DNA of 64,000 nt from Burkholderiales bacterium (GTDB lineage: Bacteria > Pseudomonadota > Gammaproteobacteria > Burkholderiales > Eutrophovitaceae). Positions within the stretch are counted from its first letter, which is position 1. Every line of letters begins with the position of its first letter. The notes under the pieces are model-generated. The model was not told the origin of the DNA and ran no database searches. It was given only the letters and a program-made list of their open reading frames with translations. The stretch lies in assembly GCA_035560005.1 (NCBI GenBank), contig DATMAN010000071.1, forward strand, positions 1 through 64,000, in the 5' to 3' direction. Below, piece by piece: positions 50,178-58,100 of the stretch. The position numbers were made by a program, and so were the translations under genes.

Positions 50178-50963
50178 TCACGAGCCGATGAAGGTGGGCG
50201 GGCGTTTTTCGACGAAGGCCGTTATGCCTTCCTTCAGGTCCGCGGTGCGTGCGCAGCGCGCGAACGCCAGCAATTCCTCCTCCATCTGCGACTCCATGCT
50301 CGCCGACAGCGAGCGATTGAGCAGGCGCTTGGTCTCGGCGTAGGCGCGCGTCGGGCCGCAAGCCAGCCGGCGCCCGAGCTGCAAGGCCTCGGCGGCCAGA
50401 CGGTCGGCGGCCACGACCCGGTTGACGAGTCCCAAGGAATGCGCCGTCTGCGCATCGAAGCGGTCCGGCAGCAGCGCGAGCTCCATCGCCTTTCGGTGAC
50501 CGACCAGGCGCGGCAGGAAAAAGGTGCTGCCGCCGTCCGGATTGGTGCCGATGTTCGCGTAAGCAAGCGTGAATTTCGTGTCGTCCGCCGCAATGGCGAG
50601 ATCCGCCGCGAGCATCAGGCTCATTCCGGCACCGGCCACCGCGCCGTGCACTGCGGCGAGCACCGGTTTGTCCATGCGCCGCATCGCGAAGATCGCGAAA
50701 TGCAGCTCGCGGCCCCAACGCACGATCAGCTCCGGCAGATCGTTCAGGTGCTCCTTGAACAGCGGCACATCGCCGCCGGCGCAGAAGGCGCGCCCTTCGC
50801 CGCGCAACAGTACCGCGCGCACGGCCGGATCGCCCGCCACGGCTTCCACGCAATCCCGCAACGCGCTCATCAGTTCGCCGTCCAGCGCGTTCATCCGCTC
50901 CGGCCGGTTGAGCGAGACCACCACCAGCGCGCCCTCGCGAGTCGTGCGGATGGTGTCGCTCAT
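50178..50963 (-). CDS. Enoyl-CoA hydratase/isomerase family protein
   Basis: 261-residue crotonase. The oxyanion-hole stretches are 'AFCAGGDVPLF' and 'AAVHGAVAGAGMSLMLAADL'. At the place of the second catalytic Glu stands Asp in 'YANIGTNPDGGSTFFLPRL', as in PaaG-type isomerases, so it may isomerise double bases of unsaturated acyl-CoAs or act on a special substrate. Its start overlaps the fadE stop (ATGA), which ties it to the tetR-fadE-ech operon. Confidence 0.87.
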   Translation of the reverse strand: MSDTIRTTREGALVVVSLNRPERMNALDGELMSALRDCVEAVAGDPAVRAVLLRGEGRAFCAGGDVPLFKEHLNDLPELIVRWGRELHFAIFAMRRMDKPVLAAVHGAVAGAGMSLMLAADLAIAADDTKFTLAYANIGTNPDGGSTFFLPRLVGHRKAMELALLPDRFDAQTAHSLGLVNRVVAADRLAAEALQLGRRLACGPTRAYAETKRLLNRSLSASMESQMEEELLAFARCARTADLKEGITAFVEKRPPTFIGS

Positions 50964-53437
50964 GCGGTTTTCCTCGCCGCTTCGAAGCCGGCATCGCCCA
51001 CCGAGGACACGGCCCGTCCGATCTCGGGCGGAAAGTCGTCGACCATGATGCAGGCGCGGCGCAGCCGCCAGAACCGCTGCAGGGCCTCCGCCTCCTCGCG
51101 CGCGACGATGCCTTTGCTGACCGCGGATTCCAGGCGCTCGGCATCGCTCAGACCCGAAACCGCCTGCGCCTTGACCGCCGCGCGCAATTTCGCTTCGACC
51201 GGCTCGCCCTTCGCCGCCGCCTCCAGAGCCAGTTCCAGCCGGCCCACAGGATCGTCCTCCCTGCGCTGAAAGAACGTGTTGTGCGTCAGCCGGTCGCGCG
51301 CCGCCGAGGGCTCCATCATCAGTCGTGCCACCTGGTGATCGTGCGCATCGCTCGGTCCGGAAAAGACCCGTCCCCACGGAAACACCAGCAGGCGAAGCAC
51401 GGAGCCGATCAGGCGGCTCGGGAAATTCTCGAACACGCCGTAGAACGCCGACTGGGTTTTGTTCAGCGCATCGTTCAGGGCCCAGTGCACCAGCGGCAGG
51501 TCCGAAGCGTGGCGTCCGTCGTCCTCATAGCGCTTGAGCGTGGCCGACGCAAGGTAGAGCTGCGACAGGACGTCGCCGAGCCGAGCCGACAGGCGCTCCT
51601 TGCGTTTCAGGCTGCCGCCGAGAACCAGCAGCGCGACGTCCGCGGCGAGCGCAAAGCCCGCGGAAAGACGCGAGAGCTGCTGATAGTAGCGGCGCAGCTC
51701 GGGCGCGCCGGGCACCGGCAAGAACCGGGCGCCGGTGAGACTCAGCCAGAGCGAACGCGCGGCATTTCCGAGCGTGAAACGCACGTGATCCCAGAACGCC
51801 TGGTCGAACGCCTCGGATGCTCGCACCGGATCGCCTTCCCGGGTCGCCGCGATTTCCCTCAACACGAACGGATGACAGCGGATGGCGCCCTGGCCGAAGA
51901 TCATCATGCTGCGCGTGAGGATGTTGGCGCCTTCCACGGTAATGCCGATGGGGATCTGCTGGTAGGCACGGCCCAGGTAATTGTTCGGACCGAGGCAGAT
52001 CGCCTTGCCGCCGTGCACGTCCATCGCGTCGTTGATCACCTGGCGCCCGCGTTCCGTGCAGTGATACTTCACGATGGCGGAAATGACCGAGGGCTTCTCG
52101 CCCAGATCCACCGCACCCGCGGTCATGCAGCGGGCGGCGTCCATCACATAGGTATTGCCGCCGATGCGGCCCAGCGCCTCCTCGATGCCTTCGAAATGGC
52201 CGATGGGGAGCTTGAACTGGCTGCGCACACGCGCATAGGCGCCGGTGGTGCGCGCGGCGAGCTTGGCCGCGCCGGTGGAGGAGGAAGGCAGCGAGATCGA
52301 ACGCCCGGCTGCCAGGCTCTCCATCAGCATGCGCCAGCCCTGGCCGACGTAGTCGCGGCCGCCGATCACCCAATCGAGGGGGATGAACACGTCCTTGCCC
52401 CAGTTCGGCCCGTTCTGGAAGGAGGCGTTGAGGGGCAAATGACGGCGGCCGATGTTCACGCCCGGATACCTGGTCGGGATCAGCGCGAGCGTGATGCCGA
52501 TGTCTTCCTTGTCTCCCAGCAAGCGCTCCGGGTCGTACAGCTTGAAGGCCAGGCCCAGCAAAGTGGCCACCGGCCCGAGGGTGATGTAGCGCTTTTCCCA
52601 GGTGAGGCGGATGCCGAGCGTCTCGCGCCCTTCGTGGGTGCCTTTGCACACGATCCCGAAGTCCGGGATGGCGCTCGCGTCCGAGCCGGCCTCGGGGCTC
52701 GTGAGCGCGAAGCACGGGATTTCCAGCCCCTTCGCCAGCCTCGGAAGATAGAGGTTCTTCTGCTGCTCGGTTCCATAATGGAGCAGCAACTCGGCGGGAC
52801 CCAGCGAATTCGGCACCATGACGGTTACGCAGGCGGTGGAGTTGCGCGTCGCGAGCTTCTGCACGACCTGCGAGTGCGCAAACGCCGAGAAGCCCAGACC
52901 GCCGTACTGGCGCGGGATGATCATCCCGAGAAAACCCTTGTCCTTGATGAACTGCCAGATCTCGGGCGGCAAATCGTTCAGCTCGTAGGAGATCCGCCAG
53001 TCGTCGCACATCCTGCACAGCTCTTCGACCGGCCCGTCGAGGAAGGCCTGTTCGTCAGCGCTCAGCCGCGGCTTCGGGGTGGCGATCAGCCTGTTCCAGT
53101 CGGGGTTGCCGCTGAAGAGCGCGCTGTCCCACCACACCGTGCCCGCGTCCAAGGCTTCCTGCTCCGTCTGCGAGACCTGCGGCAGTACCTTGCGAAACCA
53201 GCCGAGCAACGGGTCACTGATCAGGCCTTTGCGCAGTTGCGGAACCATCAGGATGCCGGCCATGACGATGAACAACATCCACAGGAGCGTCTTGGTCTCG
53301 GTATCCGCGGCCGACCAGATGGTGAACACCGCCAGATAGGCCGCGACACCGATCGCCCACAGCTGCGCGTTCGCGCGCCGATAGGCGAGCACCCAGAGCA
53401 GCGCGACGGCGGCTACGAGCCAAAGCAAGGCGTTCAT
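50960..53437 (-). CDS. fadE: Acyl-CoA dehydrogenase, FadE type
   Basis: About 825 residues, close to the 814 of E. coli FadE. Two or three N-terminal membrane segments (~1-65) are followed by the acyl-CoA dehydrogenase core, with 'PCFALTSPEAGSDASAIPDF' and 'IPRQYGGLGFSAFAHS', and the C-terminal FadE-specific domain (after ~560). It introduces the first double bond and reduces FAD. An ATG at 53437 is chosen over a GTG two codons upstream because GGAGGAG sits at the ideal distance. It lies between the TetR gene (28 bases upstream) and the hydratase gene it overlaps. Confidence 0.93.
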   Translation of the reverse strand: MNALLWLVAAVALLWVLAYRRANAQLWAIGVAAYLAVFTIWSAADTETKTLLWMLFIVMAGILMVPQLRKGLISDPLLGWFRKVLPQVSQTEQEALDAGTVWWDSALFSGNPDWNRLIATPKPRLSADEQAFLDGPVEELCRMCDDWRISYELNDLPPEIWQFIKDKGFLGMIIPRQYGGLGFSAFAHSQVVQKLATRNSTACVTVMVPNSLGPAELLLHYGTEQQKNLYLPRLAKGLEIPCFALTSPEAGSDASAIPDFGIVCKGTHEGRETLGIRLTWEKRYITLGPVATLLGLAFKLYDPERLLGDKEDIGITLALIPTRYPGVNIGRRHLPLNASFQNGPNWGKDVFIPLDWVIGGRDYVGQGWRMLMESLAAGRSISLPSSSTGAAKLAARTTGAYARVRSQFKLPIGHFEGIEEALGRIGGNTYVMDAARCMTAGAVDLGEKPSVISAIVKYHCTERGRQVINDAMDVHGGKAICLGPNNYLGRAYQQIPIGITVEGANILTRSMMIFGQGAIRCHPFVLREIAATREGDPVRASEAFDQAFWDHVRFTLGNAARSLWLSLTGARFLPVPGAPELRRYYQQLSRLSAGFALAADVALLVLGGSLKRKERLSARLGDVLSQLYLASATLKRYEDDGRHASDLPLVHWALNDALNKTQSAFYGVFENFPSRLIGSVLRLLVFPWGRVFSGPSDAHDHQVARLMMEPSAARDRLTHNTFFQRREDDPVGRLELALEAAAKGEPVEAKLRAAVKAQAVSGLSDAERLESAVSKGIVAREEAEALQRFWRLRRACIMVDDFPPEIGRAVSSVGDAGFEAARKTA

Positions 53438-53465: not shown

Positions 53466-54179
53466 TCAGGCAGCCTTGCGGCTGAGCGCCGCAGGCGCCT
53501 TGCGCGCTCGTCGTGCGCCCGCCTCGGCCACCGGCGCCTGCAGGCCCGCCGCCAGAAAAGGAATCAACCGCCGGATGATCGCCTTGGCGTCATCTGCACC
53601 CTCCAGCCGGCAGCTACCGATCAACTGCAGCGCGTCGTTGCCCGCCAAGGTGTAGGACATGGCGCCGAACATGAAGTGCATCCGCCAGGCCAGTTCCTGG
53701 TCGGAGAGATGCGGCAGCGCCCGCGCAAAAGCTTCCTTGAAGCGGATGATGACCTGGCGATAGTGCGCCGCCAGGACCTCGCGCACGAAACCAGCGGGCT
53801 CGGTAAGCGCCCGCCCGAGCAGGCGCAAGAACACCGCCCCGCCGGCCAGCGGGTCTCGGCTTACCTGCAGCGCCGGCATCAGAATCGCCTCGACGATGCT
53901 CGCCACCTTCAGGGGCCGTCCGCCCGCCGCAGCTTCCAGGCGGTCCAGGTAGGCGATGCGTGCCGCGTTCAGCGGTCCGAGCCTGCGCTCGAACACCTCG
54001 CGGACCAGCGCCGCCTTGGAACCGAAGTGGTAGTTGACCGCCGCCAAATTCACCCGTGCCCGGGACGTGATTTCCCGCAACGAAGTGGCGGCATAGCCCC
54101 TTTCCATGAAAAGAGCCTCGGCGGCAGCCAGGATTCGCTCGCGAGTATCGGGCAGGCTATGAAGTTGCGGACGCGGCAT
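53466..54179 (-). CDS. TetR-family transcriptional regulator, likely of fatty-acid oxidation
   Basis: About 237 residues. The N-terminal helix-turn-helix is 'TSLREITSRARVNLAAVNYH' followed by 'FGSKAALVREVFERRL', typical of TetR. The C-terminal ligand domain is unspecific. The ATG at 54179 is preferred to an upstream TTG at 54209, although its ribosome site is weak. The gene lies first in a transcript with fadE and ech, and a 24-bp palindrome overlaps its promoter. PsrA/FadR-type TetR regulators sense acyl-CoAs and repress such genes; that role is inferred here from context. Confidence 0.85.
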   Translation of the reverse strand: MPRPQLHSLPDTRERILAAAEALFMERGYAATSLREITSRARVNLAAVNYHFGSKAALVREVFERRLGPLNAARIAYLDRLEAAAGGRPLKVASIVEAILMPALQVSRDPLAGGAVFLRLLGRALTEPAGFVREVLAAHYRQVIIRFKEAFARALPHLSDQELAWRMHFMFGAMSYTLAGNDALQLIGSCRLEGADDAKAIIRRLIPFLAAGLQAPVAEAGARRARKAPAALSRKAA

Positions 54180-54214
54180 GCACGGGCCGATCGGCGCGTC
54201 GGGCTTCAAACAGG

Positions 54215-54238
54215 TGATTCAAACGGGTGTTTGAATCA
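54215..54238. promoter_or_regulatory. Palindromic operator for the TetR regulator
   Basis: TGATTCAAAC (54215-54224), GGGT, GTTTGAATCA (54229-54238): a perfect 10-bp-arm inverted repeat. The AAAC-N4-GTTT centre resembles sites of PsrA-type regulators. It covers the start point and part of the -10 box of the promoter at 54235-54263, the usual position for a repressor. An extra TTCAAAC half-site lies at 54205-54211. No second full copy was seen elsewhere in the window. Confidence 0.78.
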
Positions 54239-54263
54239 TCCGGGCGCGTCGCCGTCTTGTCAA
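54235..54263 (-). promoter_or_regulatory. Sigma70 promoter of tetR-fadE-ech
   Basis: On the minus strand a perfect TTGACA (54258-54263), a 17-base spacer and GATGAT (54235-54240, four of six). The start point would be near 54228, inside the palindrome, about 50 bases ahead of the tetR ATG. Confidence 0.7.
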
Positions 54264-57900: not shown

Positions 57901-58100
57901 TTCGCGGCCTTGGAATGCTCGGTTGGAAAGGTGCGGATTTTAGCGCAGCGCAGCACTGCGTTTGACCGCAAACACACGCAGCCGCAGAGAAATTCGACGC
58001 GGGTTTGCCGGGAAAGCGAAGTCGAGTAGCCAGGAAGCGTTGAGCCTTCGCATCTCGATTCCTGGCGCTGTTTCTGGACCCTTTCCCCGTGCCTCCGTAA

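Follow-up and report, generated by a model that had tools for sequence, protein, structure and literature searches.

A probable PsrA operator at the promoter of a psrA-fadE-ech operon in a Burkholderiales genome

What does the palindrome over the promoter of a tetR-fadE-ech operon do, and which protein is likely to bind it? The question is raised by a 64,000-nt stretch of a Burkholderiales contig (the window), for which the original prediction proposed an autoregulated TetR-family protein controlling fadE and the hydratase gene. This proposal is supported as the best reading of the locus, and the regulator can be named as PsrA, a repressor already known to sense fatty acids. The palindrome had been rightly interpreted as an operator, but the known PsrA motif in it had gone unrecognized.

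Promoter, operon and regulator

The promoter lies on the minus strand and reads into all three genes. Its -35 hexamer, TTGACA (54258..54263, read 54263-54258), is a perfect match by direct reading and by promoter scan. Its -10 hexamer, GATGAT (54235..54240, read 54240-54235), matches TATAAT at four of six positions, giving a promoter total of 10/12 with a 17-nt spacer. The promoter had been described as perfect; because the -10 is only a 4/6 match, that word is limited to the -35 hexamer and the spacing. Within 4 kb, the promoter scan finds no other sigma-70-like match (0.3 expected from shuffles). The -10 hexamer overlaps the outer end of the palindrome, TGATTCAAAC-GGGT-GTTTGAATCA (54215..54238, no strand assigned), referred to here as the main operator, which covers both the -10 and the start region. 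The palindrome is real: direct reading and the repeat search agree on two 10-bp arms (54215-54224 and 54229-54238) that are 100% complementary across a 4-nt spacer, and motif and matrix scans also recover it. It scores 29.8 bits with a matrix built from the operators of other genomes, and the best score in 30 simulated 64-kb sequences is 16.7 bits. The matrix scan covered the window and fetched stretches, while the mismatch search covered the whole 3.61-Mb genome. In that search, the 18-bp core TTCAAACN4GTTTGAA (54218-54235) is the sole match with at most one mismatch, and a reversed control pattern gives 0.

Three genes follow on the minus strand. The first, psrA (53466..54179), encodes the 237-aa TetR-family regulator from an ATG at 54179, with an in-frame TTG at 54209 as a possible alternative start. 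The second, fadE (50960..53437), begins 28 nt after psrA and encodes a bacterial-type acyl-CoA dehydrogenase (ACDH_C). No other ACDH_C protein is encoded in the genome, and the only copy of that type therefore lies in the PsrA operon. The third, ech (50178..50963), encodes a member of the enoyl-CoA hydratase/isomerase family, and its ATG overlaps the fadE stop codon (ATGA).

How firmly can the regulator be named? It has the Pfam domains TetR_N (PF00440, 6.7e-16) and TetR_C_30 (PF17939, 2.4e-34). The nearest solved structure is 2FBQ (E 5e-40; runner-up 4.9e-12), with which it shares VNLAAVNYHFGSK in the DNA-binding helices and an identical recognition helix, and which we take to be PA3006. PA3006 is PsrA (PMC10304680). 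The regulator is 40% identical to P. aeruginosa PsrA, and the gene is single-copy, with the next match in the genome at 2.6e-6 over 58 residues and no closer paralogue. The top NCBIfam family is the PsrA model NF053516, at 182.5 bits, below the curated cut-off of 300, which is a naming threshold rather than a defining trait of PsrA function. The model is named for Vibrio, and divergence from it may be why the cut-off is missed. The strict equivalog threshold is thus missed, and the PsrA assignment is carried by the operator evidence. By sequence comparison, the regulator is a PsrA orthologue.

Identity and conservation of the operator

A 2026 review describes the PsrA site as C/GAAACN2-4GTTTG/C, the form footprinted at the P. 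putida psrA promoter, and lists TTCAAACN4GTTTGAA as the sequence footprinted with P. putida PsrA at the rpoS promoter (PMC13104628). A palindrome of the first form is present on the regulator's own promoter in the window, and its 18-bp core is letter for letter the P. putida rpoS site. The palindrome is very probably a PsrA operator through which autoregulated PsrA represses psrA-fadE-ech and from which long-chain fatty acids or their CoA esters would presumably release it. This reading is based directly on the sequence and its place on the promoter, on how the site is conserved together with psrA, and on gene order and orthology.

The original prediction made its reading depend on the site not being lost where tetR is kept. 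Such a loss is not the pattern seen: in 87 of 95 psrA loci (the window's own included; mostly betaproteobacteria), the psrA homologue retains an upstream operator with at most three mismatches, against an average of about 5-6 mismatches for the best site in stretches drawn at random from these loci. The arrangement of the promoter recurs too. Of 47 psrA promoters in which the promoter itself is well matched, 33 place the -10 at the identical offset (-5) relative to the operator, and a TTGAC(A/T/G) -35 lies at an equal distance in many relatives. By hand count, fadE is downstream of psrA on the same strand at 76 of the 95 loci, some of the others being truncated. A site of at least 19 bits is also present for 14 of 17 PsrA homologues that are more remote but belong to the class. 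Two psrA homologues in Zoogloea (L088 and L090) have neither a recognizable operator upstream nor an adjoining fadE; a change of specificity is possible there.

The second, overlapping operator

The predicted extra half-site, TTCAAAC at 54205-54211, is present and forms a 13-bp direct repeat with the left arm of the main operator. It is not a stray half-site: it is included in a second, weaker operator, TTCAAACAGGTGATTCAA (54205..54222, no strand assigned; two mismatches, 13.8 bits), which overlaps the main one, its center 13 bp away, and which the original prediction missed. This second operator is recurrent. Of 68 non-redundant psrA promoters (the window's own left out), 22 have a site scoring above 8 bits at +13 or -13, although these 22 share descent and are not independent. 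When the flanks are shuffled and the main site is kept, the mean is 0.5 promoters and the maximum is 3 in 500 shuffles. Outside the range of spacer symmetry, other offsets have almost no second sites in the 68 promoters. An apparent overlap at ±4 bp was rejected as the internal symmetry of AACGTTCGTT spacers. The pair-bearing promoters come from Chromobacterium, a Burkholderia-type strain, Sulfuritalea, Azoarcus and other lineages. In addition, a Pseudomonas-type psrA promoter has GAAACGTAAGTTTC and then, at +13, a second site scoring 16.2 bits; the protein encoded at that locus shares 83% identity with P. aeruginosa PsrA. A class-wide search with the full composite pattern matched 3 of 274 genomes; this pattern is too strict, and the per-promoter scoring was used in its place as evidence.

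How many dimers would bind? It is a real possibility, if a somewhat doubtful one, that the site is a single-dimer operator in which only the full palindrome is functional and the extra half-site is a remnant. The remaining 46 of the 68 promoters lack a second site at ±13, and the score of the second site in the window falls within the range of simulated sequence. On the other side, the ±13 sites far exceed the shuffled expectation, other offsets are nearly empty, and the P. putida footprint is 38 bp at psrA (-18 to +20) versus about 25 bp at rpoS (PMC13104628). The L. pneumophila psrA promoter has also been described with two sites (PMC13104628), as has that of the psrA orthologue in Stenotrophomonas (PMC10304680). 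Because the 13-bp pair recurs in 22 of the 68 promoters and in the Pseudomonas-type one, it suggests dimer-of-dimers binding, with two PsrA dimers at the psrA promoter. With a chance that we put just short of even, psrA promoters in several proteobacterial lineages may have three half-sites joined in one composite operator, TTCAAAC-N4-GTTTsAAwC-N4-GTTyG, that is, two palindromes with centers 13 bp apart. Two dimers would bind it cooperatively, autoregulation would be steeper or stronger than control of single-site targets, and the published P. aeruginosa site GAAACN4GTTTC would correspond to one half of this composite. A pair of operators (30.1 and 21.0 bits, 13 bp apart) also precedes an aldehyde dehydrogenase-like gene in relative G037 (L176, 1987-2019), so the double operator is not restricted to psrA promoters. 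The recurrent double operator is only a modestly new point, but it yields a concrete and readily testable prediction on how PsrA binds its own promoter.

Mode of control, regulon and known systems

In the repressor model, we infer putative binding, repression, ligand and second dimer as follows. One PsrA dimer would occupy TTCAAACN4GTTTGAA, spanning the -10 and +1, and a second would probably occupy the overlapping site 13 bp downstream, both blocking RNA polymerase. Long-chain fatty acids or CoA esters would bind the C-terminal domain of PsrA and release it from the DNA, and psrA, fadE and ech would then be produced until the inducer is exhausted. PsrA could instead be an activator here, as at Pseudomonas rpoS, where the identical sequence serves activation (PMC13104628), but this is very unlikely given that the site lies over the -10 and start, the position of a repressor, with the same placement in most relatives, and that PsrA represses its own gene in P. 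putida, A. vinelandii and L. pneumophila (PMC13104628). Also very unlikely is a transcription terminator or other structural element of the etfBA-acyl-CoA dehydrogenase operon, which lies upstream on the same strand such that the palindrome sits between the two operons; the palindrome is A+T-rich, is not called by terminator prediction and co-occurs with psrA across many genomes.

How far would repression by PsrA extend? The genome-wide motif search leaves just one good site, and the suggestion that other beta-oxidation operons may be controlled differently holds, since etfBA and the others in the window have no site. Sites with two or three mismatches number 28 in the genome, including the second operator at 54205, and there are relaxed-core sites as well. 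Of 25 candidate sites placed against ORFs, 14 are inside them, and the intergenic ones that were tested as further targets were rejected: they precede unrelated genes, for example those for ALA dehydratase and a PLP/CBS-domain enzyme. None of the fetched candidates exceeds 15 bits, within the range of simulated sequence; these remaining sites look weak and chance-like. At etfB, five of ten relatives carry a good operator in the 250 bp before the gene (24.3, 27.1, 21.4, 25.3 and 26.8 bits), and there is none here (-0.5 bits) or in the nearest psrA-bearing relative, G038 (-3.3 bits). Just upstream of etfB in the window lies TTCCAACCGAGCATTCCAAG (57909-57928, -0.5 bits), at the place of a perfect PsrA site in relative G037; it is possibly a decayed operator. 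Other relatives have sites before a 3-hydroxyacyl-CoA dehydrogenase or thiolase gene (names read from translations). With a single good site in the genome and none at etfBA, unlike in half of the ten relatives, the PsrA regulon here seems local, with the psrA operon as its one remaining member. The regulon is reportedly shifted toward fatty-acid synthesis in Ralstonia and Burkholderia (PMC5343134), so PsrA function may vary.

What does the locus add? Given the PsrA orthology, the published core and the operator at most psrA homologues, it is ordinary biology: a regulatory module already known, now seen in a further genome. The regulator gains a name and a mechanism, and a betaproteobacterial-type genome extends the picture of the PsrA regulon, in which psrA-fadE is a recurrent core and etfBA membership comes and goes. 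Pseudomonas PsrA, with operators at the psrA, rpoS, fadBA5 and PA0506 promoters, shares with the window its family, recognition helix, operator sequence, autoregulation layout and fadE target. However, in Pseudomonas psrA forms a monocistronic unit and the regulon is broad, taking in rpoS, whereas psrA here heads a fadE-ech operon and has one good site genome-wide. FadP of Burkholderia, Ralstonia and Comamonadaceae is likewise a TetR-family regulator of fatty-acid degradation in betaproteobacteria; it is a separate regulator, set apart from the PsrA of the window by description only. QacR and the archaeal FadR of Sulfolobus, which also controls fatty-acid genes, have two overlapping inverted repeats like the window, bound there by two dimers, although operator sequence and spacing differ. 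In the literature consulted, no cooperative binding is reported for PsrA, unlike for these dimer-of-dimers TetR systems. The xanthomonad PsrA orthologues Smlt2053 and XAC2014 (TfmR) are likewise first genes of autoregulated beta-oxidation operons, with a PsrA-like operator and an apparently local regulon; the Stenotrophomonas orthologue autoregulates its own operon (PMC10304680), from a promoter that, like that of the window, has two inverted repeats. Their operons carry fadB and fadA homologues where the window has fadE and ech.
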